Shown here piece after piece: positions 6,294 to 60,448 of a stretch of DNA of 64,000 nt (positions within the stretch are counted from its first letter, which is position 1; each line of letters starts with the position of its first letter). The notes beneath the pieces are model-generated. The model saw only the letters and a program-made list of their open reading frames with translations. It did not search any database and was not told where the DNA came from. Position numbers and translations under genes: made by a program. This stretch comes from Rhodopseudomonas infernalis (lineage in GTDB: Bacteria; Pseudomonadota; Alphaproteobacteria; Rhizobiales; Xanthobacteraceae). The stretch is from NCBI RefSeq assembly GCF_022271405.1, contig NZ_JAJNAL010000005.1, positions 62,001-126,000 of the forward strand. The letters are read 5' to 3'.

Positions 6294-9200
6294 TCAGAAC
6301 GGCACCGACGCCCGGCCGCGGAGCGTCCAGATCTGAACGGTGCCGCCCAGGCCGCCGAGTTCGCCGCCGACCGCGACCGCCGCGCCATTGCCGAACCGCG
6401 CCGCGACGCCGCCGGTCAGGCGCGCCGACCAGCCATCCATCAGCGGCACCGACGCCAGCGGTGCGCCGCCTGCTAGGGTGATCGTCTCGGCATTGTCGCC
6501 CAGGAAGTAGTAGTCGGCGAACGCCCCCGCATAGGGCGCGAGCGTCAGCTTGGCGCTGTACAGCCAGGGATAGCTCACCTTGAGACCAGCCGACGCCCGG
6601 CCGGTGAAGAAGTCGCGCTGATCCTGTGGCGAACCGAGCGAGTCGACATAGGCGTTCTGGCGTTCCCACAGGGCATAGAGCTTGGCCGACGGCTCGATGG
6701 CAAAGCCCCACGCCTCGGTGGTGCCGGTGATGCCGCCGGAGATCAGCCAGCGTCGTCCATCGAAGCTGCCGAATGCGGTGCCTGCCGAGCCGTCATAGCC
6801 GATCCCCGAATAGGCTCCGGCCAGATCGAAGCGCAGACCGGCGGCAGACCGCCAGGCAGCGTAGGAACCGATCGTCCAACCGTCGCCCTTGAGCCGGCCA
6901 TTGAGCGTGCCGGACTTGTAGTCGAAGGTTTCGTAGCCCCCGACGATGCCGAACAGCAGGTCCGGCAAAGGCTTGCGCGTCAGCCCGATCAGGGCGTTGA
7001 CCTGGTTGCCCGACAGCACGGACGCCGAGTTGCTGGCATTCCACTGGCCGATGCCGGCGCCCTTCACCTCAGCCCACATCAGCCAGTCTTTCGGCTCGGC
7101 GGCCGATTTCGGCGGCGCTTTGGTGATGCCGGCTCTTCGATCGACCGCCGCGAAAGTGTCGTCGAAGCGCGAACGGCTATGCGTCGACCAACGTGGGTCA
7201 CCGATTCCGAAGGCGGTCACGGCCTGATTGCCGCCTGTCTCACGCGATCCGACCGGACCCCAACGGCTATCCACGACAGGATCCGAGGCTCCAGTTCTGC
7301 CTTGCGAGGGATCGTCGGTGAAATTGAAGCGCAGACCCGTCCCTGACGGTGCGATCAGCTCGCCGCCATCGGCGAAGCCTTCGGAGATCGCAGTGTCGAT
7401 CGCGCCCGAAATCGCCGCGCCCGACGTCTGCGCCACCACCTTGGTGGCCACCACCTGCAGCGCGCGGAGCTTCAGGCTATCTTGCGGCGTACGCACCGCT
7501 TGCAGCAATGGTTGTGAGGTGCTGGCGCCGAAGCTGGTGTTTCCAGCGAAGGACGCGACGATGGTGTGGCTGCCGACAGTCAAGCCGCTGGTCGTCAGTG
7601 TCGCGACGCCGGCTGACAGTGCGACCGAACCGAGCGTGACGCCGCCATCGGTGAAAGTGACGGTCCCGGTCGCAGCTGTGCCGCTCGCTGTCACCGTCGC
7701 GGCGAAACTAACCGCCTGACCGGCGTCGCTCGGATTGCGCGAGGAGGTCAGCGTGGTGGTGGTCGCAGCGATCGTATAGCTGAACAGGCCGGCCCCGGTG
7801 ATGCTGCCGCCGGGCGTCGTCACCGTGACGTCGACCGCGCCTGCCGCATGTGCTGGCGTCATCGCCAAGATCGACGTCGCGCTGACCACGGTCACCGACG
7901 TTGCCGCAGCGCCGCCGAAGGTCACCGCGGTGGCGCCGTTGAAATTGTTGCCGGTGATCGTGACGCGGGTGCCGCCCAGGCCAGGACCGCTGCCAGGAGT
8001 GACCGATGTGATCGTGGGGTTGCTGACGTAACTGTAGAGCCCGGTCGCTGTGGCGCTGCCAGCCGGTGTAGTGACCACGACATCGACGCTGCCGGCGGCA
8101 TGAGCGGGCGTGATCGCGGTGATCGTGGTGGCGTTGACCACGGTGATGCTGGTGGCCGCGGAGCCGCCGAAAGTCACCGCGGTCGCGCCGGTGAGGTGGG
8201 TGCCGGTGAGGGTAACCGTCGTGCCGCCGGAGTGAGGGCCGGAGGTAGGACTGACGGCCGTCACCGTTGGAGGCTCCTGGAGCACCGTGAGGGCGAACGT
8301 TTTCGATGACGTCTGCGCCGTCGGAGTGGTCTGGTCGGTCACGGTGACGGTGAAGGTCGTCGCAGACAACGGCGTGGTCGGGGTGCCGGAAATCTGCCCC
8401 GTGCTGCTCGAGAACGTCAGGCCGGTCGGCAGCGTGCCCCCCGAGAGCGCGAAGCTGAACGTGCCGAAACCTCCGGATGCGGTGACGGGGATGAATGGCG
8501 TAGCTGCGGAGTTCACCGTCAGCGTCGTCGTGGCAACGGCTTGTGTGGTGACGAGTGTCGCGGCATTGACGGTGAGACTGAAGGTCTTCGACGACGTCTG
8601 CGCCGTCGGAGTTGTCTGGTCGGTCACCGTCACGGTGAAGGTCGTCGCGGCCAGCAGCGTTGTCGGAGTGCCGGAGATCTGGCCGGTGCTGGTCGAGAAT
8701 GTCAGGCCGCTTGGCAAGGTGCCACCGGACAGCACGTAGCCCAGCGTGCCAAGGCCTCCGGACGCGGTGACGGGGATGAATGGCGTAGCTGCGGAGTTCA
8801 CCGTCAGCGTCGTCGTGGCAACGGCTTGTGTGGTGACGAGTGTCGCGGCATTGACGGCAAGACTGAAGGTCTTCGACGACGTCTGTGCGGTGGGAGTTGT
8901 CTGGTCGGTCACCGTCACGGTGAAGGTCGTCGCGGCCAGCAGCGTCGTCGGGGTGCCGGAAATCTGACCGGTGCTTGTCGAAAATGTCAGGCCGGTCGGC
9001 AAGCTGCCACCCGACAGCGCGAAGGTCAGCGTGCCGAAGCCGCCGGCTGCGGTGACGGGCGTGAAGGGCGTCACTGCCGAATTCACCTGGACCGTCGTGG
9101 AGGCGACGGCTTGCGTCGTGGTGAGTGGCGCCGTGTCGACCGTTAGGCTGAAGGTCTTGGATGAGGTCTGTGCGGTCGGAGTCGTCTGGTCGGTCACGGT

Positions 9201-10973
9201 GACGGTGAAGGTCGTCGCGGCCAGCAGCGTCGTCGGGGTGCCGCTGATTTGTCCGGTGCTGGTCGAGAACGTCAGGCCCGTCGGCAGCGTGCCGCCGGTG
9301 AGTGCGAAGCTCAACGTCCCGAAGCCGCCGGCTGCGGTAACGGGGGTGAACGGCGTCGCTGCCGAATTTGCCGGAAGCGTCACGGAGGCAACAGCTTGCG
9401 TCGTCGTGAGCGGCGCTGCGTTCACTGTCAGGCTGAATGTCTTGAATGACGTCTGTGCGGTCGGAGTCGTCTGGTCGGTCACGGTGACGGTGAATGTCGT
9501 CGCGGCCAGCAGGCTTGACGGAGTGCCGCTGATTTGTCCGGTGCTGGTCGAGAACGTCAGACCGGTCGGGAGTGTGCCGCCGGATAGCGCGAAAGCCAGC
9601 GTGCCGAACCCGCCGGACGCCGTGACGGGCGTAAACGGGGTGGCGGCGACATTCGCCGTGAGGGTCGTGGAGGCGACGGCTTGGGTTGTCGTCAGCGTCG
9701 CTGCGTCGACTGTCAGGCTGAAGGTCTTGAAAGAACTTTGCGGGGTCGGGGTCGTCTGGTCGGTCACCGTGACGGTGAACGTGGTCGTGGCCAGCAGGCT
9801 TGACGGAGTGCCGCTGATTTGTCCGGTGCTGGTCGAGAACGTCAGGCCGGTCGGGAGTGTGCCGCCGGATAGCGCGAAAGCCAGCGTTCCGAACCCGCCG
9901 GACGCCGTGACGGGTGTAAACGGGGTGGCGGCGACATTCGCCGTGAGGGTCGTGGAGGCGACGGCTTGGGTTGTTGTCAGCGTCGCTGCGTCGACGGTCA
10001 GGCTGAAGGTCTTGAAAGAACTTTGCGGGGTCGGGGTCGTCTGGTCAGTCACCGTGACGGTGAACGTGGTCGTGGCCAGCAGGGTTGACGGAGTGCCGCT
10101 GATTTGTCCGGTGCTGGTCGAGAACGTCAGACCGGTCGGGAGTGTGCCGCCGGACAGCGCGAAAGCCAGCGTTCCGAACCCGCCGGACGCCGTGACGGGT
10201 GTAAACGGGGTGGCGGCGACATTCGCCGTAAGGGTCGTCGCGGCAACGGCTTGCGTCGTCGTCAGCGGGCTTGCCGCAGTGCAGGTGGTTGAGAATTGAA
10301 TCGTCGTATTGGAGTGGGCAGTTATCAGGACTGTGGAGGCGTACAGCGAGCCATTGTTATTGATCTCGTCGACGTCCGACTGGCTGAGCTGTTTTGACCC
10401 ACTTGTGGTTGATGGAAAACCGCCTCCCTGCCCGTCCTTGAAGGTGCTCGGTATGCCAAACCCGCTGCCTCCGGTCGTGAATGTCGTAAAGCCAGCCTCG
10501 ACACCGCTTCCGCTCATGCTGATGCTGTAGTGGATGGTGTCTCCAACTGCGAAATTAGAAGCGCCGGCAGGGTTGTATCCGGAGCCGTCGCCGTCTGCCA
10601 TGCCGTCCACATAGTTGACCGTGAAGTTCAGATTTCCACCGTTTACGGCGTCACAGCCCACCGATGCTGCCCAGCTCAGCGTTGGTAACAGTGATGTAAC
10701 GACGCATGCCGCAGTGGCCAAGACAATCGCGCGGGCTCGGCGCGCGAAGTGCGACGTCGATCTGTCGGCGGTTGCAGAGAGCCTTGTGGGCAGTCGTTCA
10801 CGTCGGATCCGCCTTCGATCGCCATGGCGATCGCCGAATCCCGCATGTTTCAAATTGCTCGGCGTCGACAGTGGTGCTTGCATGCAACGCGAGCGGCCGA
10901 CTGATGGGGGTTTTTCCAAATGCATATCGTCCGCTATTGCTCGGTGCGCAGCTCGCGTCAAAAAGACGATCAC
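6294..10973 (-). CDS. Giant autotransporter with seven Ig-like repeats, two IPT/TIG domains and a C-terminal beta-barrel
   Basis: A type V secreted or surface adhesin-like protein of up to 1559 residues. Order: an extended N-terminus with the hydrophobic signal around residues 78-101 (IVLATAACVVTSLLPTLSWA); a region of about 130 residues with a Cys pair; seven 95-residue He_PIG-like Ig repeats (about 238-902), each holding FTPVTASGGFGTL and LPTGLTFSTSTGQISGTP; two IPT/TIG domains (GPHSGGTTVTLTG and GPGLGGTRVTITG); one Ig-like domain of the Big_3 type; a linker; and an autotransporter beta-barrel from about 7090 to the end, finishing in Phe as outer-membrane proteins do. The frame opens at GTG 10973; ATG codons at 10925 and 10883 are also possible starts. 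It diverges from the tail-collar gene. The ligand is unknown, and adhesion is inferred. Confidence 0.9.
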   Translation of the reverse strand: MIVFLTRAAHRAIADDMHLEKPPSVGRSRCMQAPLSTPSNLKHAGFGDRHGDRRRIRRERLPTRLSATADRSTSHFARRARAIVLATAACVVTSLLPTLSWAASVGCDAVNGGNLNFTVNYVDGMADGDGSGYNPAGASNFAVGDTIHYSISMSGSGVEAGFTTFTTGGSGFGIPSTFKDGQGGGFPSTTSGSKQLSQSDVDEINNNGSLYASTVLITAHSNTTIQFSTTCTAASPLTTTQAVAATTLTANVAATPFTPVTASGGFGTLAFALSGGTLPTGLTFSTSTGQISGTPSTLLATTTFTVTVTDQTTPTPQSSFKTFSLTVDAATLTTTQAVASTTLTANVAATPFTPVTASGGFGTLAFALSGGTLPTGLTFSTSTGQISGTPSSLLATTTFTVTVTDQTTPTPQSSFKTFSLTVDAATLTTTQAVASTTLTANVAATPFTPVTASGGFGTLAFALSGGTLPTGLTFSTSTGQISGTPSSLLAATTFTVTVTDQTTPTAQTSFKTFSLTVNAAPLTTTQAVASVTLPANSAATPFTPVTAAGGFGTLSFALTGGTLPTGLTFSTSTGQISGTPTTLLAATTFTVTVTDQTTPTAQTSSKTFSLTVDTAPLTTTQAVASTTVQVNSAVTPFTPVTAAGGFGTLTFALSGGSLPTGLTFSTSTGQISGTPTTLLAATTFTVTVTDQTTPTAQTSSKTFSLAVNAATLVTTQAVATTTLTVNSAATPFIPVTASGGLGTLGYVLSGGTLPSGLTFSTSTGQISGTPTTLLAATTFTVTVTDQTTPTAQTSSKTFSLTVNAATLVTTQAVATTTLTVNSAATPFIPVTASGGFGTFSFALSGGTLPTGLTFSSSTGQISGTPTTPLSATTFTVTVTDQTTPTAQTSSKTFALTVLQEPPTVTAVSPTSGPHSGGTTVTLTGTHLTGATAVTFGGSAATSITVVNATTITAITPAHAAGSVDVVVTTPAGSATATGLYSYVSNPTITSVTPGSGPGLGGTRVTITGNNFNGATAVTFGGAAATSVTVVSATSILAMTPAHAAGAVDVTVTTPGGSITGAGLFSYTIAATTTTLTSSRNPSDAGQAVSFAATVTASGTAATGTVTFTDGGVTLGSVALSAGVATLTTSGLTVGSHTIVASFAGNTSFGASTSQPLLQAVRTPQDSLKLRALQVVATKVVAQTSGAAISGAIDTAISEGFADGGELIAPSGTGLRFNFTDDPSQGRTGASDPVVDSRWGPVGSRETGGNQAVTAFGIGDPRWSTHSRSRFDDTFAAVDRRAGITKAPPKSAAEPKDWLMWAEVKGAGIGQWNASNSASVLSGNQVNALIGLTRKPLPDLLFGIVGGYETFDYKSGTLNGRLKGDGWTIGSYAAWRSAAGLRFDLAGAYSGIGYDGSAGTAFGSFDGRRWLISGGITGTTEAWGFAIEPSAKLYALWERQNAYVDSLGSPQDQRDFFTGRASAGLKVSYPWLYSAKLTLAPYAGAFADYYFLGDNAETITLAGGAPLASVPLMDGWSARLTGGVAARFGNGAAVAVGGELGGLGGTVQIWTLRGRASVPF
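8268..10262 (-). repeat. Seven in-frame 285-bp tandem repeats coding Ig-like domains
   Basis: An anchor string on the plus strand (gtgct.gtcgag) recurs at 8401, 8686, 8971, 9256, 9541, 9826 and 10111, exactly 285 bp apart each time, so every copy encodes 95 residues with no length drift. Copies near 9541, 9826 and 10111, at the N-terminal side of the protein, are nearly identical over long stretches; those nearer the beta-barrel have diverged. Homogenisation of some copies suggests recent duplication or gene conversion and likely copy-number variation between strains. Confidence 0.95.
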
Positions 10974-11305
10974 AAAAGCAGTGTAGGTCAGTTTGCATTG
11001 ATCACTATCGAGTCGAAAACTCGCATTCGTCCGAGATGAATTTCAATGGGAATCACTAATTGACTCACTTAATAATACGATAAGTTGCATCGGGGTGACA
11101 GGTGGTCATTCTTTCCAAACTACCAATTCGAGTAGGTGCTCGAGAAAGGTATTAGGAGGGGTATTCGGTAGCGGGGTGTTGTCCCGCCTGTGCTGTCCGT
11201 ATTTCTCGACCGCGGTGATGCGACGACTGGACGTCGATTTCGGATTTAACCAGGGGCGGGTGCCCGCTTGCGATCGCCCGCATATTTCAAGCCAGGATGG
11301 ATCAG
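10974..11305. promoter_or_regulatory. AT-richer divergent intergenic region between autotransporter and tail-collar genes
   Basis: About 330 bp with clearly lower GC than its surroundings, lying between two divergent genes, so it must hold both promoters. A TTGACT hexamer at 11060-11065 is followed 15 bp later by TAAGTT (11081-11086), a weak promoter candidate facing the tail-collar gene. TTGAT-N4-ATCGA at 10998-11011 is one base from the FixK/FNR consensus TTGAT-N4-ATCAA, but a single near-match is weak evidence. No convincing gene is seen here. Confidence 0.4.
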
Positions 11306-19666: not shown

Positions 19667-20914
19667 TTAGCTCGCCGGTGCCACCGGCGCCGCAGGTGCG
19701 GTCGTCGGCACCGCGGCTGGCTTGGCGTCGCCGCCCTTGTAGATGCGTGCGTAGCGCGGGCCGAGGCTGGTCAGCACTTCGTAGCCGATCGTGCCGAAGT
19801 GGTGGGCGAGTTCGTCGACGGTGATGCCATCGCCGATCAGCGTCGCCATCTGGCCGCGGCGCGCCACGTTGGGCGGAAGGTCGGTGACGTCGACGGCCAT
19901 CAGGTCCATGGAGATGCGGCCGGCGATCGGGCAGCGCTGGCCGGCGATGATCACGTCGGCTCCCCGGGTGCCGTCGTTGGAGCCGGCAGCACGGAAGTAA
20001 CCGTCGGCATAGCCGGCCGACAGCACGGCGATCTTGGTCGGCCGCCGCGCGCTCCAGGTCGCGCCGTAACCGACCGTGTCGCCGCGCTCGACGTTGCGGA
20101 CCTGCACGACCCGCGCCTTCAGATCGACGACCGGCTGCATCGGATTGTCCGCCTCCGGCGTCGGATTGACGCCGTACATCGCGGCTCCGGGCCGGATCAA
20201 GTCGAACTGGAATTGCGACCCGAGAAAGATGCCGGAGGAGGCAGAGAGCGAGGCCGGCACGCCGGCGAATTGGCTGGCGATCTCGCGAAACGCCGAAACC
20301 TGCTTGGCATTGATCGAATGGTTGGGCGACTCCGCCGCGACCAGATGGCTCATCACCAGCGTGATGCCGTGGTCACCGGCGGCGATCCGCGGCACGATGC
20401 CCTGCGCTTCGGTGACGGTGAGGCCGAGCCGGTTCATCCCTGTGTCGATGTGAATGGCGGCGCCGCCATTCCAGCCGGTGCGCCGGCAGTAGACGTCCCA
20501 TTCGGCGAGTTCGTAGAGGTCACCTATCACCGGGCGGCAATTGAGCTTGGCGAATTCATCACCAGTGGTCTGAAAGAAACCGTCGAGGACGTAGATGGTG
20601 GCGTCGGGCGCGACCGCGCGCACCGCGGCGGCTTCGCCGAGCGTGGCGACGAAGAATGTCTTGCAGCCCGCCGCCGCGAGCGCACGGGTGACCGGGCCAG
20701 TGCCGCAGCCATAGGCGTCGCCTTTGACGACCGCCGCGGCCTCGGCGGGCACTGCGGTCTTCTCCAGCTTGCGCCAGTTCGCGATAAGGGCGTCGAGGTC
20801 GATGCTGAGAACGCCGGGCGCGGTCGCAGTGGACGCCGCCAGTGCTGCGGCCTTGGCGGCCTCGGGCGTGAGCAGGCTGGCAACGGTCGCGTTCGGGTCG
20901 GGCAGAATGTTCAT
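19667..20914 (-). CDS. alr: Alanine racemase (biosynthetic copy)
   Basis: Pyridoxal-phosphate enzyme that interconverts L- and D-alanine for peptidoglycan. 415 residues, fold-type III: the PLP lysine lies in VVKGDAYGCG (the usual VVKADAY has Gly for Ala), and the second catalytic base Tyr is in [21 protein letters not shown] and RISMDLMAVDVTDLP are also present. A Pro/Ala-rich tail of about 20 residues is unusual. ATG 20914 is used; an in-frame GTG is nine bases upstream. A second alr homologue lies in the catabolic operon at 56819. The gene follows dnaB, but a strong hairpin separates them. Confidence 0.95.
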   Translation of the reverse strand: MNILPDPNATVASLLTPEAAKAAALAASTATAPGVLSIDLDALIANWRKLEKTAVPAEAAAVVKGDAYGCGTGPVTRALAAAGCKTFFVATLGEAAAVRAVAPDATIYVLDGFFQTTGDEFAKLNCRPVIGDLYELAEWDVYCRRTGWNGGAAIHIDTGMNRLGLTVTEAQGIVPRIAAGDHGITLVMSHLVAAESPNHSINAKQVSAFREIASQFAGVPASLSASSGIFLGSQFQFDLIRPGAAMYGVNPTPEADNPMQPVVDLKARVVQVRNVERGDTVGYGATWSARRPTKIAVLSAGYADGYFRAAGSNDGTRGADVIIAGQRCPIAGRISMDLMAVDVTDLPPNVARRGQMATLIGDGITVDELAHHFGTIGYEVLTSLGPRYARIYKGGDAKPAAVPTTAPAAPVAPAS

Positions 20915-51430: not shown

Positions 51431-52090
51431 TCAGTTCGGCAGCAGCGCCATCATCTCCCGCCAGTGATAGATCTGCGGGCTCGGCGCGTCGGTCCGCGCC
51501 GCCGCGACCATTGCCCGCGCGACGTCGCCGCCGTCGATGCCGCGAAAGCGATCGGCGGGGCCGGCCAGCAACGGGTTGAGCAGGCGCGCCAAGCCGATAT
51601 ACAGCTGCTCCAGCGGGCGATGCTCACCGCGCTCGCCCATCAGCATTGATGGGCGGAAGATGTGGGTCTGCGGAAAGCCCAGCGCGATGACGTCGCGTTC
51701 GGTCTCGCCCTTGGTGCGGAGATAGAACGACCGCGACGATGCGTCGGCGCCCACCGCAGTGACCAGGAACGCCGCATGCGCGCCGTTGCGCCGAGCGATG
51801 CGCGTCGCCTCGACCGGATAGTCGTGATCAATCCGGTAGTACGCCGCCTCGTCTGGCGTCTGCTTGCGGGTGGTGCCGAGTGCGACAAACACCTCGTCTG
51901 CCTCGAGCTGCGTGGCCAATGCCGGCAGAGTGCCGAGATCGCCGATCAGTACCGTCAGCTTGGGATCGCTCAGCGCCAGCGGCCGCCGTGTTACTGCGAT
52001 CACCCGCGTGTAGTCGGGGCTGCTGAGCAAGCCGCGCAGCAGCTGCGAGCCGATGAACCCGGTGGCGCCGAAGACGAGCGCGATTGTCAT
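51431..52090 (-). CDS. NAD(P)-binding atypical SDR (NmrA/HSCARG-like)
   Basis: 219 residues. The N-terminal Rossmann motif is VFGATGFIGSQLLRGLL; VTAVGADASSRSFYLRTKGETERDV resembles the oxidoreductase HTATIP2/TIP30-like branch of atypical SDRs that lack the standard YxxxK. Activity and substrate are unknown. ATG 52090 begins the conserved MTIALVFGATG. Confidence 0.88.
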   Translation of the reverse strand: MTIALVFGATGFIGSQLLRGLLSSPDYTRVIAVTRRPLALSDPKLTVLIGDLGTLPALATQLEADEVFVALGTTRKQTPDEAAYYRIDHDYPVEATRIARRNGAHAAFLVTAVGADASSRSFYLRTKGETERDVIALGFPQTHIFRPSMLMGERGEHRPLEQLYIGLARLLNPLLAGPADRFRGIDGGDVARAMVAAARTDAPSPQIYHWREMMALLPN

Positions 52091-52309
52091 GGCAAGGCGT
52101 CGCGGCATGCGGTCATGCCGGGTAGGATCGCATGCGGCACAGGAGAGCGCAACGCTGTCGGTGAGTTAAACGGCGTCACCGGCCGAGCCGCAGGCTCTAT
52201 CTGCTCTTTCCAACCATCGCCGATCGGCAGCATCTGGCGACGCACGAGATGGATTGTCGCTCGAGCTGCGATCGTTTTCGTGACGGGAGACGAGTAGTCG
52301 GTGCCGACG

Positions 52310-53797
52310 CTATCCTTTTGCGTCTCGGCAGGGAGAGGTGGCCATTTCCCTGACGATCTCCTCGGCGAGCTTGCCGAGCTTCCTGATCGCATTCCTGATT
52401 TCCGGCGTCAGCTTTGCGCCAACCGATAAGCGAAAGCAGTGGTCGAAGCGGTTGCTGACAGAAAAGATCGGCCCCGGCGCGATCGAGATCCCCAGCTTGA
52501 GAGCGCGTCGATAGAATTCCATCGCATCGAACGGAGGGGGAATTTCGATCCAAAACAAAAACCCGCCCTCCGGGTTCGTGGCCGTGCTTCCGATCGGGAA
52601 CGTGTCCTTGATCAATTTTCGGACCTGATCACGCTGCCTCAGAAACAAATCCGACAGCCGACTGCAATGTTTCGCGTATCGACGTCCATTCAAATACTCG
52701 ACCAGTGTGTACTGCGACAGGGTCGAGACGGCAGTCGGACGGCGCAACTGAATGTCCTTGACGACGTCGGCGTGTTTGCCGGGAACGCACCATCCGACCC
52801 GCAGGCCTGGTGACAGGATCTTGGAGAAGGAGCCGCAGTAGACCGTATTTCCGTAGAAGTCGAAGCTCGCCAGCGCCTTCACCGGCTTGTTGCGGAAATT
52901 GAGGTCGCTGTAGACGTCGTCTTCGATGACGGGGATTGAGCGCTGGTTCATGGCATCCGTGATCGCCCGCAGCGCGTAGGGCTCCATGCAGCAGCCGAAT
53001 GGATTTTCGAACGTCGGGTTCAGGACGACGGCCTGAACCTTGTTGTCGTCCGCGGCCCTGATCAGTTCATCGACATCGATGCCCGTCGTCGGGTGAGTGG
53101 CGATCTCGATCACGTGTAGACCCGCTTCCTGAATCTCCTGAAGAATGCCGAAGAAGGTCGGAGACTCGACAGCGACGGCATCGCCGGGTCTCGTCAGGGC
53201 CCGAAGCGCGATCGCCATTGCATCCGTTTCTCCCGCGGTAATCAGGACGTCCGTCTCGGAGACCAATAGTCCGCGGCGTTGCAGGAAGGCCGCCACGGCT
53301 CGGCGCAGTTCGGGCACGCCGTGAGGATCGGATGTTTTGTAGATCGACGGGCCATGAACCCTGACAGCCCGCTTCATCGCCTCAGTCAGTTCGGCAGTCG
53401 GCAGCAAGTTCTTGGCAACCTCCGCCGCGCCGAAGGCCAGCAGGTCCGATGTGCGGAACGCTTTGAACAGATCCTGGATGAGGTGGTGAACGTCGACGGG
53501 GTGCGGACCCTGCGACGACTCGGTCGGACGGGGAATGTCCAGCATGGCCGGCTCGAGGCTGCGCTTCTTGGACCCTGCGGGCCGTCTGACAAAAAATCCC
53601 GAGCGTTCGCGGGAATACGCAAGCCCGCGCGCTTCAAGCTCGACCAGCACCCGGACCGCCGTCGATTGCGACGCGCCCTCTGTCGCCATCAACTGGCGGA
53701 CCGACGGGAGCCGATCTCCGTGTCGGTAGATGTCCATCTCGACCGCCCCGATGAGGCGCTCGAGGATTTTCTCATACCGGTAGGATCGATGCTTCAC
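52310..53797 (-). CDS. MocR-type transcriptional regulator (GntR wHTH fused to aminotransferase fold)
   Basis: 495 residues. N-terminal winged helix (about 8-72): GDRLPSVRQLMATEGASQSTAVRVLVELEARG. After a linker, a fold-type I aminotransferase-like domain (110-490) with N260-P261, EDDVYSD (Asp293, Tyr296), the PLP lysine K326 in CGSFSKILSPG and a C-terminal FRLSVGA Arg. MocR regulators bind PLP and an amino acid or amine and control genes next door. It diverges from the BenE-oxidase-RidA-racemase-SHMT operon, so it is its probable regulator; direct repeats lie between them. Confidence 0.95.
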   Translation of the reverse strand: MKHRSYRYEKILERLIGAVEMDIYRHGDRLPSVRQLMATEGASQSTAVRVLVELEARGLAYSRERSGFFVRRPAGSKKRSLEPAMLDIPRPTESSQGPHPVDVHHLIQDLFKAFRTSDLLAFGAAEVAKNLLPTAELTEAMKRAVRVHGPSIYKTSDPHGVPELRRAVAAFLQRRGLLVSETDVLITAGETDAMAIALRALTRPGDAVAVESPTFFGILQEIQEAGLHVIEIATHPTTGIDVDELIRAADDNKVQAVVLNPTFENPFGCCMEPYALRAITDAMNQRSIPVIEDDVYSDLNFRNKPVKALASFDFYGNTVYCGSFSKILSPGLRVGWCVPGKHADVVKDIQLRRPTAVSTLSQYTLVEYLNGRRYAKHCSRLSDLFLRQRDQVRKLIKDTFPIGSTATNPEGGFLFWIEIPPPFDAMEFYRRALKLGISIAPGPIFSVSNRFDHCFRLSVGAKLTPEIRNAIRKLGKLAEEIVREMATSPCRDAKG

Positions 53798-53811
53798 GAC
53801 AAACCGATGTC

Positions 53812-53843
53812 ATCTGTGTTCGAATCTTAGATTGAATCTGTGT
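53812..53843. promoter_or_regulatory. Direct repeats and palindrome in the MocR/BenE divergent region, candidate operator
   Basis: ATCTGTGT occurs at 53812-53819 and again at 53836-53843, 24 bp apart (about 2.3 helical turns), and between them lies the inverted repeat AATCT-T-AGATT (53823-53833). MocR proteins such as GabR and PdxR bind spaced direct repeats in divergent promoters, so this fits the expected architecture. The surrounding 125 bp are AT-richer than the genes. Confidence 0.5.
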
Positions 53844-53923
53844 CTACAAACGACGCGTCACTCACGTCTTACTGGAGGCAACGCGCACGGCGTGAATATG
53901 TATTGTTATCAAAGGATTATAGT

Positions 53924-55117
53924 ATGCGTGACTTTTCGGTCTCGGCCGTTGTCGCCGGACTAATCGCCGTTATCATATCTTATGCCGGGCCGTTGGTCAT
54001 TGTTTTCCAGGCCGCCAATGCGGCGCAATTGCCACCAGAAGTTGTGTCGTCGTGGATCGGTGCGATTTCAATCGGATCGGGCGTCGCCGCGATCGTCATG
54101 AGCCTGATCTATCGGGCGCCGTGCATCACGGCATGGTCGACGCCGGGCGCGGCGCTGCTGGTGCTGGCGCTGCCGTCGATACCCTACGCCCAAGCGATCG
54201 GGGCGTTCGTCTTTGCTGCGGCCGTCTGCACCTTCCTCGGCTTGTCCGGCTTGTTCGATACGGTGGTCTCCCGCATCCCGAAGGGGATTGCCGCAGCGAT
54301 GCTGGCCGGCATCCTGTTTCGCTTCGGGGCGGATATCTTCGGAGCGTTCAGCGCCGATCCCATCGGCGTGGGGCTGATGGTGTCCGTGTATCTCATCGCC
54401 AAGCGTACAATCCCCCGGTACGCGATCACGGCGGTGCTCTGCACAGGCCTGGCGATTGCGTTCGCCGCAGGTGAGATTCACACGGCCGAGCTGTCCCTCG
54501 AGTTTGCGAAGCCGGTCTTCACGGCCCCTGAATTTTCCTGGCAGTCGATCCTCAGTCTCGGCGTGCCGCTCGCGCTGGTGACCTTGACGGGGCAGTTCGT
54601 TCCCGGCATCGCGGTGCTGCGGACGTTCGGCTATAAGACGCCCGCCAATCCGCTGGTCTGGATCACGTCCGCGATCTCGCTGGTGATTGCGCCGTTCGGC
54701 TCGCACGGCATCAACCTCGCTGCGATCACCGCCGCGATCTGTTCCGGTCCCGAAGCGCATCCGGACCCCCGCAAGCGCTACGTCGCGGGCGTCGCACTGG
54801 GCGTATTCTACATCATCGCAGGGATCTTCGGCGCGACGCTGGTCACGATCTTCGCGGCGCTTCCGAAGACGATGATCGCCACACTTGCCGGGCTCGCTTT
54901 GCTCGGAGCCATCGCAAGCGGGCTGACCGCGGCGATGGCCGAGGAGAAGGTGCGGGAAAGCGCCTTGATCACGTTCCTCGTGACCGCATCCGGCACCTCG
55001 TTCCTCGGGCTGGGGTCTGCATTCTGGGGGCTGATCGTCGGGCTGATCGCTTACCTGGTCTGGAGCGTCTGGCTGATCTCGACAACTCGGGCGCAGCTCG
55101 CGCCGGCCAAGGACTAA
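53924..55117 (+). CDS. BenE-family secondary transporter
   Basis: 397 residues with 11-12 hydrophobic segments; APCITAWSTPGAALL and GSHGINLAAITAAICSGPEAHPDP in parts are the BenE/YdcO signatures. BenE is named as a benzoate:H+ symporter, but the family is broad and related to nucleobase permeases. Here it leads an amino-acid catabolic operon, so import of the pathway's substrate is more likely than benzoate. ATG 53924 is chosen because AAAGGA lies suitably upstream; an open frame extends to GTG 53840. The downstream oxidase starts 26 bases after the stop. Confidence 0.88.
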   Translation: MRDFSVSAVVAGLIAVIISYAGPLVIVFQAANAAQLPPEVVSSWIGAISIGSGVAAIVMSLIYRAPCITAWSTPGAALLVLALPSIPYAQAIGAFVFAAAVCTFLGLSGLFDTVVSRIPKGIAAAMLAGILFRFGADIFGAFSADPIGVGLMVSVYLIAKRTIPRYAITAVLCTGLAIAFAAGEIHTAELSLEFAKPVFTAPEFSWQSILSLGVPLALVTLTGQFVPGIAVLRTFGYKTPANPLVWITSAISLVIAPFGSHGINLAAITAAICSGPEAHPDPRKRYVAGVALGVFYIIAGIFGATLVTIFAALPKTMIATLAGLALLGAIASGLTAAMAEEKVRESALITFLVTASGTSFLGLGSAFWGLIVGLIAYLVWSVWLISTTRAQLAPAKD

Positions 55118-55143
55118 TCCCTCGCACAGCCGGAAACGATCCA

Positions 55144-56319
55144 ATGATGTCCGAGAGTTATGACTTCGCTGTGGTCGGCGGCGGGATCTGCGGCGTCGCG
55201 GCAGCCTGCGAACTGGCCGTGTACGGGCGTGTCGTCCTGGTCGAACGCGAACAGCAGCTCGCCTACCACACAACGGGCAGGTCCGCCGCGATCTCGATGG
55301 AAAGCTACGGCAACGCCGTCATCAGAAAGCTGACGACGTGGTCGACGGCCTTCTACAAGGACGCCGACCATGACTTCTTCGAACATCCGGCGTGGAGCAG
55401 CCGCGGCGCGTTGATCCTGTCGGACGCCGCCAACCAGGATCATCTGATCCGCCGGATCGATTCTATCCGGCAATTGGTTTCGACCGTTCAGCAGGTCGAT
55501 GAGCACACCGTGAGGGAGCTCGCTCCCTATCTCGCGCCGGGACGCTGGACAACAGCGCTGTACGAGCCGCACGCATTCGATCTCGACGTGCATGCGATCC
55601 ACTTCGCCTATCTCAAGAGCTTGCGCCGGCGGGGAGGGACCGTTCTCCGCGACCTCGCGTTTACCGGCGCCGTGCGCCAGGGCGCGGGGTGGACGGTCAG
55701 CCTGTCCGACGGCAGTCGGCTCGGCGCCGGTGTGATCGTCAACGCCGCCGGTGCCTGGGCCGACGAAGTCGCACAAAGGTCGGGTATCGATCCGTGCGGG
55801 ATCAAGCCGCTGAGACGGACGGTCGTGCTCGTGGACACGGCGGAGCGTCACCCGCACACGCCCTATATCGGGACCGTGGACGAGAGGATTTTCATCAAGC
55901 CGGAGGCCACCGGCCTGATGGTGTCGCCGTGCGACGAGACGCTTAGTGCGCCATGCGACGCCGCGCCTGACGAATTGGACATCGCAATCGCCATGGACCG
56001 GTTCGAGAGCATGACGACATTCGGGCGATCCACGATCCGCCGGAAATGGGCGGGGCTGCGAACTTTCGTCGCCGATCGCACGCCGATCGTCGGACGCGAG
56101 GGTCAGGACGCCGGCTTTGTCTGGTCTGCGGCGGTCGGAGGCTACGGCATCCAGGCGGCGCCGGCGATCGCAAAGCTCGCTGCGGCCGCTGCGCTTGGCG
56201 TGCCGTTTCCTGAAGACGTCTGCGGCGCGGCCATCCGCCCGTCCGATCTTTCACCGCAGCGGTGCCGAGCGATGGCAGGCGCCGAACACAGTCTCGGCGC
56301 GGTCGCCGAGCTGACCTGA
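55144..56319 (+). CDS. FAD-dependent D-amino-acid oxidase/dehydrogenase-like protein (DAO family)
   Basis: 391 residues, cytosolic, with the dinucleotide motif FAVVGGGICGVAAACELA, the DAO central VIVNAAGAWADEVA, and the C-terminal FVWSAAVGGYGIQAAPAIAKL that seats the flavin. Family members oxidise D-amino acids, glycine, sarcosine or related amines to imines. The operon supplies an alanine racemase and a RidA-family protein, so D-alanine (or another small D-amino acid) is a sensible substrate; this is inference. The imine product would be 2-iminopropionate, which hydrolyses to pyruvate. Confidence 0.9.
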   Translation: MMSESYDFAVVGGGICGVAAACELAVYGRVVLVEREQQLAYHTTGRSAAISMESYGNAVIRKLTTWSTAFYKDADHDFFEHPAWSSRGALILSDAANQDHLIRRIDSIRQLVSTVQQVDEHTVRELAPYLAPGRWTTALYEPHAFDLDVHAIHFAYLKSLRRRGGTVLRDLAFTGAVRQGAGWTVSLSDGSRLGAGVIVNAAGAWADEVAQRSGIDPCGIKPLRRTVVLVDTAERHPHTPYIGTVDERIFIKPEATGLMVSPCDETLSAPCDAAPDELDIAIAMDRFESMTTFGRSTIRRKWAGLRTFVADRTPIVGREGQDAGFVWSAAVGGYGIQAAPAIAKLAAAAALGVPFPEDVCGAAIRPSDLSPQRCRAMAGAEHSLGAVAELT

Positions 56320-56353
56320 TGCCCTGAGCCGATTTCAAAAAGGAGATACTATC

Positions 56354-56794
56354 ATGGATTCCATCACCGCGTCTGATAACAGCCTGTCCTTCGACAAAGA
56401 GATTATCTTCACTGAGAAGGCGCCGCTGCCGCTCGGCACATACTCCCAGGCGATCAGGGTGGGAGAGACCGTCTATCTGTCGGCGCAGACACCCGTGTCG
56501 CCGATCACCGGGCAGGTGGAAGCGGCGGATTTCGACGGGCAGATGCGCCAGACCATGGACAATCTGAAGGCGATGGCGGAAGCCAGCGGCGGAACGCTGC
56601 AGGATGTCGTCAAGGTCACGGTCTTCATCGCCGAGATCGGCGATTTCGCGAAGATGAACGGCATCATGGAGGAGTACTTCCAGAAGCCGTATCCCGCCCG
56701 GACGACCGCGGGCGCGAACGGCCTCGCGCGCGGCACCCTGGTCGCGATCGATGCGATCATGGCGTTGGCGATCAGCACACCGCGTCCGTCCTGA
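56354..56794 (+). CDS. RidA/YjgF-family protein with altered active-site residue
   Basis: 146 residues with a short N-terminal extension. The body follows RidA: APLPLGTYSQAI, VYLSAQTPVSPITGQV, QTMDNLKAMAEASGGTLQDVVKVTVFI in parts and YFQKPYPARTT. Aligned without gaps to E. coli RidA, the substrate-binding Arg105 is kept (PAR), but the Glu120 position (IEIEAIA) is Ala (VAIDAI). RidA hydrolyses enamine/imine intermediates from PLP enzymes and amino-acid oxidases, matching its place after the oxidase; loss of the Glu suggests different specificity. An excellent AGGAG precedes the ATG. Confidence 0.93.
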   Translation: MDSITASDNSLSFDKEIIFTEKAPLPLGTYSQAIRVGETVYLSAQTPVSPITGQVEAADFDGQMRQTMDNLKAMAEASGGTLQDVVKVTVFIAEIGDFAKMNGIMEEYFQKPYPARTTAGANGLARGTLVAIDAIMALAISTPRPS

Positions 56795-56818
56795 CGTCTC
56801 CGGCTGGTGAGCGTCGCC

Positions 56819-57970
56819 ATGCCCGTTGGACACGGCGTGACATTGACGGTCGGGCTGGATGCGCTGGCGGCGAACTATCGCACCTTCCAGTCGGTCGCCT
56901 GCGGGGCCGAGGTTGCGGGGGTCGTCAAGGCGGATGCATACGGGTGCGGTGTGGCTGGCACCGTGCCGACGCTCACCAACATGGGGTGCCGCACGTTCTT
57001 CGTCGCGCATCTCGATGAAGGGATCGCGCTTCGCCAGCATGTCCGTCACGGCGCGATCTACGTTCTCAATGGGTTGCTGCCCGGCACCGAGGCCGTCTAC
57101 AGCACGTATCACCTTCGGCCCGTCATCACGTCGCAACATCAGCTTTATGCGTGGAGCCGCTGCTGTCGCAAGAACGGCTGGAGGGGCGGAGCGGCGCTTC
57201 ATATCGATACCGGGATGAACAGGCTCGGCTTCCGTCTCGAGGAAGTCGCCGGCATTGCCGAGCTCTCGGTATCGGACCTTGCCTGTTTCGATCTGGTCCT
57301 GAGCCATCTTGCGTGCGGCGACGAGCCGGAGAATCCGAGAAACGCAGAGCAGCTGGCGCGCTTCACCTGGGCGCGGCGACTGCTGTCTTGCGTGCCGCGG
57401 GCCTCGCTCGCCGCTTCCGCCGGGTGTTATCTCGGAGTCCAGGCTCACTTCGATCTGGTGCGGCCGGGCATCGGGCTGTTCGGCGGCAATCCGTTCGCGA
57501 CGCGCAGAAATCCGCTCCAACCGGTGCTCAGGGCGTCCGCGCCGCTGCTGCAGGTCAAGCGGCACGCCGCCGGTGACTTCGTGGGTTACGGCTGTGATTG
57601 TCGCCTCGACCGGGACACGCTGATCGGAGCGGTCTCGCTCGGCTACGCGGACGGTCTGCCGCGGTCGGCCTCGTCGGCACCGGTGACGCTTTACTACGGC
57701 GGACTGCCGATCAGGGCCATGGGCCGGATCTCCATGGATATGACCCTCGTCGACCTCACCAGCGTCCGCCACCTGGAGCCGCGTGTCGGGACGCAGGTGG
57801 AGATCTTCGGCTCCAGCCGCGATCTCAATCACTTCGCAGGTTCGATCGGCACGATCGCAAACGAAGTCCTGACCTCGTTGGGCCGGCGGGCTCGCCGCGT
57901 TTACGAGCATCCGCTGTCCTGTCCGATCCATGACAACAATCCGGCCGTGCCGGTCGCGCAAGCGTCTTGA
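56819..57970 (+). CDS. Second alanine racemase homologue, operon-encoded
   Basis: 383 residues, same family as the alr at 19667: PLP lysine in [20 protein letters not shown], catalytic Tyr in [11 protein letters not shown], and [13 protein letters not shown]. It differs from the housekeeping copy by a replaced N-terminus and no C-terminal tail. A second copy inside a catabolic operon parallels dadX, the catabolic alanine racemase. It may also be a broad-specificity racemase. ATG 56819 is chosen; an in-frame GTG is 12 bases upstream. The SHMT start follows 14 bases after the stop. Confidence 0.93.
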
Positions 57971-57984
57971 AGAGGAAGATCAGC

Positions 57985-59262
57985 ATGCAACTCTCACCCA
58001 AGAGCCAGGAGAAGGTCGTCCGGCGTCGTCATTCGCAGGCGATTTTTGCCTTGATCGACGAGGAAGAAAAGCGGCAGGCGAACTGCATCGAACTGATCGC
58101 GTCCGAGAACATCGTCTCGGACGATGTGTTGCGGGCACAGGGCTCGGTACTCACCAACAAGTACGCGGAGGGCTATCCCGGAAGGCGCTATTACGGCGGC
58201 TGCGATGTCGTCGACGAAGTCGAGCGGCTTGCTATCGATCTGGCCAGGCAGCTGTTTCAATGCAGTCATGCCAACGTGCAGCCGCATTCCGGAAGCCAGG
58301 CGAACGCCGCGGTGTTTCTGGCGCTGCTCTCGCCCGGTGATACGATCCTGGCCATGAAGCTGGACGCTGGCGGACACCTGACACATGGCGCCACCGTCAA
58401 CGTTTCGGGGAAATGGTTCAACGTCGTGCATTATGGCGTCGACGACACTAGCCAAAGGATCGACCTCGATGAGGTGCGGCGTCTGGCCAAGCAGCATCGC
58501 CCGAAGCTGATCATCGTTGGCGGGTCGGCCTATCCACGCGTGATCGACTTCGGTTGCTTCCGTAGCATCGCCGATGAAGTCGGCGCCTTCCTGATGGTCG
58601 ACATGGCGCATATCGCCGGCCTCGTGGCGGCCGGCGTTCATGGCTCGCCGCTGCCGCACGCCCATGTGGTGACGTCGACGACGCACAAGACCTTGCGCGG
58701 GCCGCGCGGTGGGTTGCTGCTATCGAACGATGCGCTGGTTGCGAAGAAGCTCGATGCCGCCATCTTCCCCGGCATGCAGGGAGGGCCGTTGATGCATGTC
58801 ATCGCCGCCAAGGCGGTGGCGTTCGACGAAGCGCTCAGCGATGAGTTCCGGCGCTACGGGCAAACGGTCGTCGAAAATGCCAGCGCGTTCGCCGACGCGC
58901 TTCAGGCCGAAGGCCTCGACCTCGTCTCCGGCGGGACCGACAATCATCTGGTGCTCGTCGATCTGCGCTCGCGAGGCGTCACCGGCGCTGACCTTGCCAC
59001 GGCGCTGGAGCGGCTGGGCATTATCAGCAACAAGAACAGTATCCCCAACGATCCGCGTAGTCCCACGGTCACGTCCGGAATCCGGTTCGGCACGCCCGCC
59101 ATGACGACACGCGGCTTCGGGGCGGACGAGTTCCGACAGTTGGCCTCGATCATCGCTCGAACGAGTGACGTCGTGGCTGACGGGCGCCCGTGGGGTGATG
59201 CCGGCTGGGACGACGGCATCAAACACGAGGTGAGGGGACTGATCGCGCGCTGCTCGTCGTAG
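57985..59262 (+). CDS. Serine hydroxymethyltransferase homologue, candidate alpha-methylserine hydroxymethyltransferase
   Basis: 425 residues, PLP fold-type I. Present: [51 protein letters not shown], the PLP lysine K235 in [13 protein letters not shown], and [17 protein letters not shown]. Differences from E. coli GlyA lie close to the cofactor: LAHGGHLTHG is [10 protein letters not shown] here, SGKLYN is SGKWFN, and the TTTTHK run is TSTTHK. SHMTs exchange serine and glycine through tetrahydrofolate; a subgroup splits alpha-methyl-L-serine to D-alanine plus methylene-tetrahydrofolate. The operon's racemase and oxidase fit the latter. ATG 57985 follows AGAGGAAG. The housekeeping glyA is presumably elsewhere. 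Confidence 0.92.
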
Positions 59263-59318: not shown

Positions 59319-60398
59319 TCAGCGATCGATCATGTGGAAGCCGACCGTGCCGGCATCGGCATCGTACAGATAGTCGAAAGCGTTCAGCGCATGGACGCTG
59401 GTGTTGACGAAGGTCGGGCGCTTGGCGCCGCCGACCATCACGATCCGCTCGGGCGCGGCGGCATTGGCGGTGTCGCCGGCGGCGAAGCCGTAACCCGGCG
59501 GGCGGGCCGCTGCGGCGTCGCCGAAGCGGATCGACAGCCGCGCACCCGGTGCCAGCGTCTCGCCGCCGCGCGCGCCCTCCGTCCGCTCCGCCTCGCGGTC
59601 AGCCGGCAGCGTCAGATACATGACCGAGACGCCCGTATCGATCAGCGCCGTGCCGCAGGCCGGCGTGCCGTCGTCGACCGAGATGCAGGCCGGCAGCGGG
59701 CCCCAGTCGCGGCCATCCGCTGCGCGCTGCAGCTGTACGACGTGATAGTTGCCGCGGGTGTTGGCGGCGGTCAGTCCGACATGGACGCCGGCGCGGGTCA
59801 CCACATAGCCGCGCCGCAGCGGGCCGGGCGCCGCCATGGTGCCCATGCCGGGCAGATTGAGGAACGGGTTCTTGTCCGGGGTGCTCTGGCTCTGATGGTC
59901 ACCCTCGCGCGCGAAGCCGATGCCCATCATGGCGACGTGGCGCGGCGCATCGCTCGGCTCGCAATTGCGCGCATTCGGCACGCAGTCGATCCGCTCGACC
60001 GCCAGCACGGCAATCGGCTTCGTCGTGACGCTCTGATCGTTGCTGCCGCCGATCGTGACGATGGTTTCGACCCAGCGGCCGCGCATGATCCGGCCGGAAC
60101 TCGAATAGGTCAGCGTGCCGGGTCCGATCTGGCGCAAGTTGTCGATGTTCGGAATGCTCGAGGCCGCGACCACGATGCCGGTCGAACCGGTGTCCATCAC
60201 CGCACGCACCGGCTCTCCGCCAAAACTCATCAGCAGCGTCGGCGGCGCGCGACGCGGCTCGCCGGTTTCGCTGTCGTTGAGGTAGCGCAGATAAGTTCCG
60301 CCCTCGCGGGCTTCGGTGCGCTGGGCAAAGCCGGGCTGCGTGACGCATGCCAGCGTGATGGCGATGCCGAATCTGGAGATGGTTTTCGCGACGTCCAT
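59319..60398 (-). CDS. Secreted two-lobed pepsin-like aspartic protease candidate
   Basis: 359 residues with signal peptide (FGIAITLACVTQPGFAQ). Two aspartic-protease motifs in one chain, VMDTGSTGIVV (Asp69) and LIDTGVSVMYL (Asp254), are 185 residues apart, close to the 183 of pepsin. TYSSSGRIMRGRWVETIV in the first lobe resembles the flap region, and MMGIGFAR the GLG turn. Bacterial retropepsin-like proteins have one motif per chain, so this looks like a bilobal A1-type enzyme of the shewasin kind. The substrate is unknown; a periplasmic or extracellular location is predicted. ATG 60398 follows GAGGGAG. Confidence 0.8.
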   Translation of the reverse strand: MDVAKTISRFGIAITLACVTQPGFAQRTEAREGGTYLRYLNDSETGEPRRAPPTLLMSFGGEPVRAVMDTGSTGIVVAASSIPNIDNLRQIGPGTLTYSSSGRIMRGRWVETIVTIGGSNDQSVTTKPIAVLAVERIDCVPNARNCEPSDAPRHVAMMGIGFAREGDHQSQSTPDKNPFLNLPGMGTMAAPGPLRRGYVVTRAGVHVGLTAANTRGNYHVVQLQRAADGRDWGPLPACISVDDGTPACGTALIDTGVSVMYLTLPADREAERTEGARGGETLAPGARLSIRFGDAAAARPPGYGFAAGDTANAAAPERIVMVGGAKRPTFVNTSVHALNAFDYLYDADAGTVGFHMIDR

Positions 60399-60428
60399 CA
60401 GATCAATCACTCCCTCGCTGCAAGGTCG

Positions 60429-60448
60429 CAACTATCATTTGATAGTTG
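60429..60448. promoter_or_regulatory. Perfect palindrome upstream of the aspartic protease gene, operator candidate
   Basis: CAACTATCA-TT-TGATAGTTG, a perfect 9+2+9 inverted repeat, 31 bp upstream of the protease start in a GC-rich context. AT-rich palindromes of this size are typical of dimeric repressor sites; the regulator is not evident nearby. Confidence 0.55.

Follow-up and report, generated by a model that had tools for sequence, protein, structure and literature searches.

A MocR-divergent operon in Rhodopseudomonas infernalis proposed to serve dad-type catabolism of a small neutral D-amino acid

The stretch of DNA analysed here (the window) comprises 64,000 nucleotides of the Rhodopseudomonas infernalis contig NZ_JAJNAL010000005.1 (positions 62,001 to 126,000) and is part of a 5.5 Mb genome (87 contigs, 99.9% complete; labelled G000). 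At 52310-59262 it carries a MocR-type regulator gene that is divergent from five genes encoding a BenE-family transporter (BenE), a DAO-family flavoenzyme (DAO), a RidA-family deaminase (RidA), an alanine racemase (Alr), and a serine hydroxymethyltransferase (SHMT). Based on sequence comparison and on precedent in Pseudomonas, we propose with moderate confidence that this is a dad-type catabolic divergon under MocR whose substrate is a small neutral D-amino acid, with alanine (as the D-form, or as the L-form by way of the racemase) the most likely candidate. The six-gene layout described in the first-pass annotation, MocR divergent from BenE-DAO-RidA-Alr-SHMT, was borne out by family matches for all six proteins. 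The features are as follows (plus-strand gene coordinates include the stop codons):

52310..53797, minus strand: MocR/GabR-type regulator (GntR winged helix-turn-helix plus aminotransferase-like domain; PF00392 and PF00155; top NCBIfam model PdxR, 243 bits, below its cut-off of 320)
53812..53843, plus strand: putative MocR operator, direct repeat ATCTGTGT-N16-ATCTGTGT (24 bp start to start; identical in G046, a genome of another genus)
53840..55117, plus strand: BenE-family transporter (TIGR00843 448 bits, cut-off 203; PF03594 484 bits; probable true start ATG 53924)
55144..56319, plus strand: DAO-family, DauA-like D-amino-acid dehydrogenase (PF01266 162 bits; top solved relative DauA, 6p9d/3nyc)
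56354..56794, plus strand: RidA-family imine/enamine deaminase (TIGR00004 130 bits, cut-off 106; PF01042; motif YPARTT at residue 113)
56807..57970, plus strand: alanine racemase, presumably catabolic in role (TIGR00492 231 bits, cut-off 168; motifs VVKADAYG and SLGYADG, which we take to be functional motifs of the family)
57967..59262, plus strand: SHMT, one of two in the genome (PF00464 541 bits; ATG 57985 a possible start; canonical donor-site residues)

The gaps between the plus-strand genes are 26 bp (BenE-DAO), 34 bp (DAO-RidA), and 12 bp (RidA-Alr), and the SHMT gene starts either at TTG 57967, overlapping alr by 4 bp, or at ATG 57985, which leaves a gap of 14 bp and is preceded by a purine-rich stretch. 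The plus-strand gene positions given earlier were confirmed with the exception of the listed BenE start, GTG 53840. This start is doubted because it lies inside the putative operator repeat and because ATG 53924, which is probably the true start, is the one that aligns with G046.

The operon resembles the Pseudomonas dad locus (dadR, dadA, dadY, and dadX), where DadA releases imino-alanine that is deaminated by DadY and where dadY mutants are outcompeted on alanine (PMC9714295). As in dad, a flavin D-amino-acid dehydrogenase, a Rid imine deaminase, and an alanine racemase are encoded in one operon, here in that order, and the order is kept in G046. In contrast to dad, the regulator is a MocR protein rather than the AsnC/Lrp-type DadR, the dehydrogenase is DauA-like rather than a member of the DadA family, and the Rid protein passes the TIGR00004 (RidA-type) cut-off, whereas DadY is a Rid2 protein. 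The BenE carrier and the SHMT are also additions relative to dad. Both the order in G046 and the dad precedent support the part of the first-pass annotation that treated oxidation of a D-amino acid, removal of the imine, racemisation, and regulation by MocR as belonging together.

Among solved proteins, the nearest relative of the DAO is the D-arginine dehydrogenase DauA (E 1.7e-63; the next other protein is at E 4.6e-11), and the homology to the P. aeruginosa enzyme (3nyc, 6p9d) is near full-length. In an alignment read by hand, the positions of DauA Tyr53, Arg222, and Arg305 are kept in the window DAO, but Glu87 is replaced with Ala and His48 with Ile, and the substrate range should therefore differ from that of DauA. 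The G046 orthologue also has Ala at the position of Glu87, a residue that we take to be a guanidinium contact in DauA. Because the Glu87 position is Ala while Arg222, Arg305, and Tyr53 are kept, the DAO appears to fit a small or neutral D-amino acid better than D-arginine. Additionally, when iminoarginine was produced by DauA, Rid2 and Rid3 proteins acted on it while RidA and two Rid1 proteins had no notable action (PMC5619798), which speaks against D-arginine as the substrate of the operon.

The same gene order is found in G046 (locus L097), with protein identities of 69% for MocR, 78% for BenE, 63% for DAO, 82% for RidA, and 62% for Alr. The operon is not a chance arrangement, because five of the six genes keep their order in another genus while most of the intergenic DNA has diverged. 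No SHMT was found in the 16 kb of G046 around these five genes, and the sole SHMT match in that genome at E<=1e-60 is on a different contig from the operon. Since G046 keeps the other genes without SHMT, we take BenE-DAO-RidA-Alr plus the divergent MocR to be the core of the operon, and the SHMT is either an extra of the window copy or was lost in G046.

The intergenic region between MocR and benE contains a perfect direct repeat of ATCTGTGT. G046 has the same two boxes, letter for letter and equally spaced, although most of the flanking DNA aligns poorly. When both genomes were scanned at up to two mismatches, the exact repeat occurred only at the operon in each; an additional two-mismatch site was found in G000 and none in G046, and a control with the pattern reversed found 0 and 1 matches in the two genomes. 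With up to three mismatches allowed, no site in the window other than the repeat matches the pattern; 0.22 matches were expected, and at this laxity 17 of 100 shuffled sequences gave one or more. MocR motifs frequently consist of direct boxes at helical-turn spacing, and a TGT or TGG group is conserved in most of them (PMC5320631). It is likely that the repeat is the MocR operator, because it is kept between two genera and neither genome has a second exact copy. The arrangement is that of a MocR divergon, with two boxes between the regulator gene and its divergent targets, to which MocR is predicted to bind. Promoter-like sites numbered 2 against 1.3 expected, and terminator-like sites 8 against 4.8 expected (standard deviation 2.0). 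A MocR protein of Brevibacillus controls the gene for D-alanyl-D-alanine ligase (PMC5734734).

In the proposed mechanism, MocR, probably with pyridoxal phosphate (PLP) and the amino acid as signal, would bind the two ATCTGTGT boxes, a site supported by its conservation, and activate the operon. The BenE-family carrier would import the substrate or the inducer. By family and by precedent, the racemase would interconvert L- and D-alanine, the DauA-like flavoenzyme would convert the D-form to 2-iminopropionate, and RidA would hydrolyse this imine, giving ammonia and pyruvate, ahead of any harm to PLP enzymes from 2-aminoacrylate, the tautomer of the imine. The terminal SHMT may be a link from the pathway into one-carbon and serine/glycine metabolism, or it may serve as a back-up for the housekeeping GlyA.

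A different role for the SHMT was at the centre of the first-pass annotation, in which the SHMT homologue would cleave alpha-methylserine, or a related alpha-substituted serine, to D-alanine and methylene-tetrahydrofolate while the other genes burn the D-amino acid. A variant of this reading has alpha-hydroxymethylserine cleaved to D-serine. The pathway has the merit of a job for every gene, but the C-C cleavage step is not supported by the donor site, and we regard the pathway as very unlikely. According to a review, SHMT residues Tyr55 and Tyr65 correspond to Thr60 and His70 in the alpha-methylserine hydroxymethyltransferases (mSHMTs; EC 2.1.2.7), and a Tyr55Thr change enables SHMT to use D-Ala and D-Ser; canonical SHMT may itself show a weak D-alanine side activity, which is a point for the pathway (PMC6411801). 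The comparison used six mSHMT-clade proteins, all assigned by similarity rather than by assay: those of the Shinella and Priestia TRIS clusters, which were termed mSHMT from similarity to confirmed ones (PMC10848231), and relatives on Ensifer, Paracoccus, Ruegeria, and Mesorhizobium plasmids that are 64.5-91% identical to the Shinella protein. In a 123-row alignment, all six have Thr (five) or Ser (one) at the first of the two positions and His at the second, and the other 117 rows, including the operon SHMT, have Tyr/Tyr. Eight alignment columns are diagnostic in that the six mSHMTs share one letter there and at least 95% of canonical SHMTs have a different one; the Tyr65 position is among the eight. 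The operon SHMT matches the canonical letter in seven of these columns, shows Ala in the eighth, and in no case carries the mSHMT letter. It is 49.6-52.5% identical to the six mSHMTs, lower than to canonical SHMTs (median 60.2% to 29 from the same family and 54.0-61.6% to seven others). Of 117 near-invariant canonical positions, the operon SHMT deviates at 5 (one being a terminal gap), as does the SHMT of locus L153, while the other canonical rows checked do so at 0-2. The operon protein looks like, and is most likely, a canonical serine/glycine enzyme rather than an mSHMT. It is because of these donor-site residues and of the SHMT-less core operon in G046, and not because of the tree, that the alpha-methylserine step is no longer the leading reading.

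The phylogeny places the operon SHMT less firmly. The protein forms a long branch and stood alone with weak support in a quick tree of 123 rows. In a 40-row tree it grouped, unstarred, with three SHMTs encoded near BenE in other genomes (91/94), and in a 46-row tree with more of these BenE-linked proteins it grouped, again unstarred, with four of them (71/89). The mSHMT clade (100/100) was formed without it. A single origin of all seven BenE-linked SHMTs was not rejected by the approximately unbiased test (p-AU 0.067, or 0.076 with the operon SHMT added); a separate single-origin test (p-AU 5e-67) is uninformative because it omitted L153, which lies in a 100/100 clade with two of the tested rows.

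Several points weigh against the alanine reading. It does not need the SHMT and thus explains one of the genes poorly. The DAO reaches 21.8 and 24.2 bits with the two DadA models, whose cut-offs are 383 and 494, so it is DauA-like and not DadA; DauA enzymes have a broad D-amino-acid range, and BenE carriers are known for benzoate. The first-pass annotation had held that clustering of the SHMT with housekeeping GlyA would count against alpha-methylserine, and such clustering was not found: placing the operon SHMT together with its own group of housekeeping GlyA proteins gave p-AU 0.121 (40 rows) and 0.013 (46 rows), while union with the mSHMTs, which would favour alpha-methylserine, was not rejected (p-AU 0.525 and 0.433, respectively). 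BenE has been proposed to carry pyridoxine, not alanine, and the functions that the 2016 survey gives for 38 MocR groups are PLP, gamma-aminobutyric acid (GABA)/putrescine, taurine, and ectoine, with alanine catabolism not among them (PMC5320631).

The loci of mSHMT genes also differ from the operon, although both have a second SHMT-fold gene, which in the mSHMT loci (TRIS clusters, Ensifer, and Paracoccus) is often near genes for D-amino-acid handling (PMC10848231). The five mSHMT plasmid loci viewed have a LysR-type regulator (5/5; the adjoining gene in four), a D-serine ammonia-lyase or dehydratase (four), PurU (three), and FolD (two), whereas the window operon has none of these and is headed by MocR. 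The locus seen that comes closest to the operon proposed in the first-pass annotation is L193 of the Mesorhizobium plasmid pWSM4875 (1-10665), where a Ser/His mSHMT-clade gene is accompanied by genes for PurU and D-serine ammonia-lyase. Upstream, this region also carries genes for an alanine racemase and RidA, a likeness that speaks for alpha-methylserine, and for an amino acid ABC transporter.

A canonical SHMT would find use together with all of the other genes if the substrate were D-serine (or D-threonine), which the racemase would convert to L-serine for cleavage by the SHMT to glycine and methylene-tetrahydrofolate, with the DAO oxidising the rest. The broad range of DauA-type enzymes would allow for this. 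However, Alr is above the alanine racemase cut-off (TIGR00492) but far below those of the serine racemase (VanT) models (175 bits of 460 and 161 of 900), the operon is without a D-serine dehydratase, and the G046 core is without SHMT, all of which makes D-serine an improbable substrate. The genome has six matches to Ala_racemase_N, of which one besides the operon Alr is of alanine-racemase strength; this protein (PF01168, 180 bits) is encoded in the window at about 20162-20803 on the minus strand.

BenE genes were found above the cut-off in 59 of 391 genomes, and 30 loci were kept. Excluding the operon and its G046 copy, a MocR-like gene is divergent from BenE in all ten better-scoring loci (L108-L117, 51-54% identity), while in the 18 lower-scoring ones (L118-L135) no MocR-like gene was found within 1.5 kb. 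Twelve larger BenE regions contain MocR in seven cases and SHMT in four (L148, L149, L152, and L153), and in L148 and L149 a YggS-type PLP protein, judged by eye, follows the SHMT. The L148 locus, from the same genus, also appears by eye to encode 5-aminolevulinate synthase and a class III aminotransferase after BenE (about 8662-11108). Among eight BenE plasmid records viewed of 98, MocR was found by tblastn in four and SHMT in three (Shinella oryzae, pBYT1-1, and pKAZ5). The clusters on pBYT1-1 (L205, 160960-171349) and pKAZ5 (L204, 209802-220948), both typed as conjugative plasmids, carry MocR, BenE, pyridoxal kinase, an ArgD-type aminotransferase, TrpB, TrpA, and SHMT. The annotation of pBYT1-1 adds YggS, GNAT, and glutamine amidotransferase, and an MFS-type carrier, annotated as a fosmidomycin resistance protein in pKAZ5, adjoins both clusters.

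This pattern raises the possibility that the operon is a vitamin B6/PLP homeostasis module, in which a PdxR-like MocR would regulate PLP enzymes together with a pyridoxine importer of the BenE type. Suvorova and Rodionov (2016) predicted PdxR regulons with GlyA-type SHMT, ArgD-type aminotransferases, COG325 proteins, and a putative BenE pyridoxine transporter; BenE-GlyA was named as a new link, and RidA was present in five MocR regulogs (PMC5320631). The window operon is similar in that MocR is divergent from BenE and accompanied by a GlyA-type SHMT and RidA, PdxR is the top NCBIfam model for its regulator, and its SHMT groups with BenE-linked SHMTs. The clusters on pBYT1-1 and pKAZ5, where BenE adjoins MocR and PLP genes such as pyridoxal kinase, also speak for a B6 role. 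The operon is unlike those regulons in that the PdxR score is below the cut-off, pdxK, pdxST, and yggS are not in the operon, and D-amino-acid catabolic genes lie between BenE and SHMT; B6 salvage offers no obvious role for either a flavin D-amino-acid dehydrogenase or a racemase. In addition, the window and G046 BenE proteins fall outside the 17-row clade (100/100) that holds the MocR-linked BenE proteins and group weakly with three others (L196, L202, and L203; 85/60), two of which are beside ben genes, and the window MocR is just 23-27% identical to the MocRs of other BenE loci. The genome has another BenE (L147, G000:C12) that belongs to the 17-row clade and has its own divergent MocR, with no SHMT found in the 14 kb around it. 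On balance, a B6 module is unlikely.

An additional idea for the SHMT comes from the toxicity of 2-aminoacrylate, which inactivates alanine racemase and SHMT and damages further enzymes such as aminotransferases and aminolevulinate synthase (PMC4433059, PMC9127364); its most significant target in Salmonella is GlyA (PMC7065518). Because D-alanine oxidation would release much 2-iminopropionate and the operon holds RidA and two enzymes hit by 2-aminoacrylate, it could conceivably be self-protecting, with RidA and spare copies of both victims, alanine racemase and above all SHMT, although we rate this as quite unlikely. A regulator of PLP-binding type could then sense the damage, and the SHMT would be a back-up GlyA, perhaps resistant to 2-aminoacrylate. 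The SHMT alone needs such an idea, since the racemase already has an ordinary catabolic role in the dad precedent. If it were true, the SHMTs that join MocR-BenE clusters elsewhere would reflect the same habit.

The claim that no operon of this make-up has been described could be correct for the complete set of genes, although MocR with BenE and GlyA, and MocR with RidA, are already in print (PMC5320631). In open-access literature searches on MocR with D-alanine or D-amino acid dehydrogenase, a description of MocR joined to the dad-type order and BenE was not found. The dad-type order of jobs (dehydrogenase, Rid, racemase) beside MocR and joined to BenE is apparently a new wiring, and it offers a two-genome candidate operator for this MocR and a concrete substrate class. 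The operon also adds to the cases in which an SHMT gene accompanies MocR and BenE, and is relevant to the question of why PLP enzymes accumulate in MocR regulons.

DAO relatives at E<=1e-40 occur in 3 of 119 genomes of the family (the source genome, G046 at 63%, and G084 at 40%); the DAO was found in 1 of 16 genomes of its own genus at E<=1e-60 and in 3 of 397 of the order at E<=1e-85 (four candidates scored per genome). In G084, G246, and G280, the DAO (39-43% identity) is without BenE, Alr, or SHMT nearby, and the G084 locus has a single weak RidA match (25% over 81 amino acids). None of the other operon genes (E<=1e-8) was found at the nearest SHMT loci (the best 80 of 582), some of which are on short contigs. 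BenE, RidA, Alr, and SHMT were not annotated near DauA-like plasmid matches in the three records viewed (of 30 listed, 363 in all), and a phage collection gave no DAO match.

The operon is flanked on the left by an SDR protein gene (51431-52108) and on the right by an aspartyl-protease-like protein gene (59319-60431). The G+C content of the block is ordinary (0.632 against 0.646 for the window), as is that at third codon positions (GC3), so composition gives no support to a recent foreign origin. No convincing direct repeats were seen at the borders of the block among the 20 repeat families shown of 50. The SDR neighbour is present in 7 of the 16 genus genomes, the source genome included. In G609 and G527, where the loci are short, neither the protease nor a GGDEF gene was seen by the SDR gene, and in G541, G573, and G595 a GGDEF gene comes next after it, without the protease gene. 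In G588 (locus L210), the SDR and aspartyl-protease-like genes directly adjoin, about 60 bp apart, so that the site filled by the 7 kb operon block is unoccupied in this genome of the same genus.

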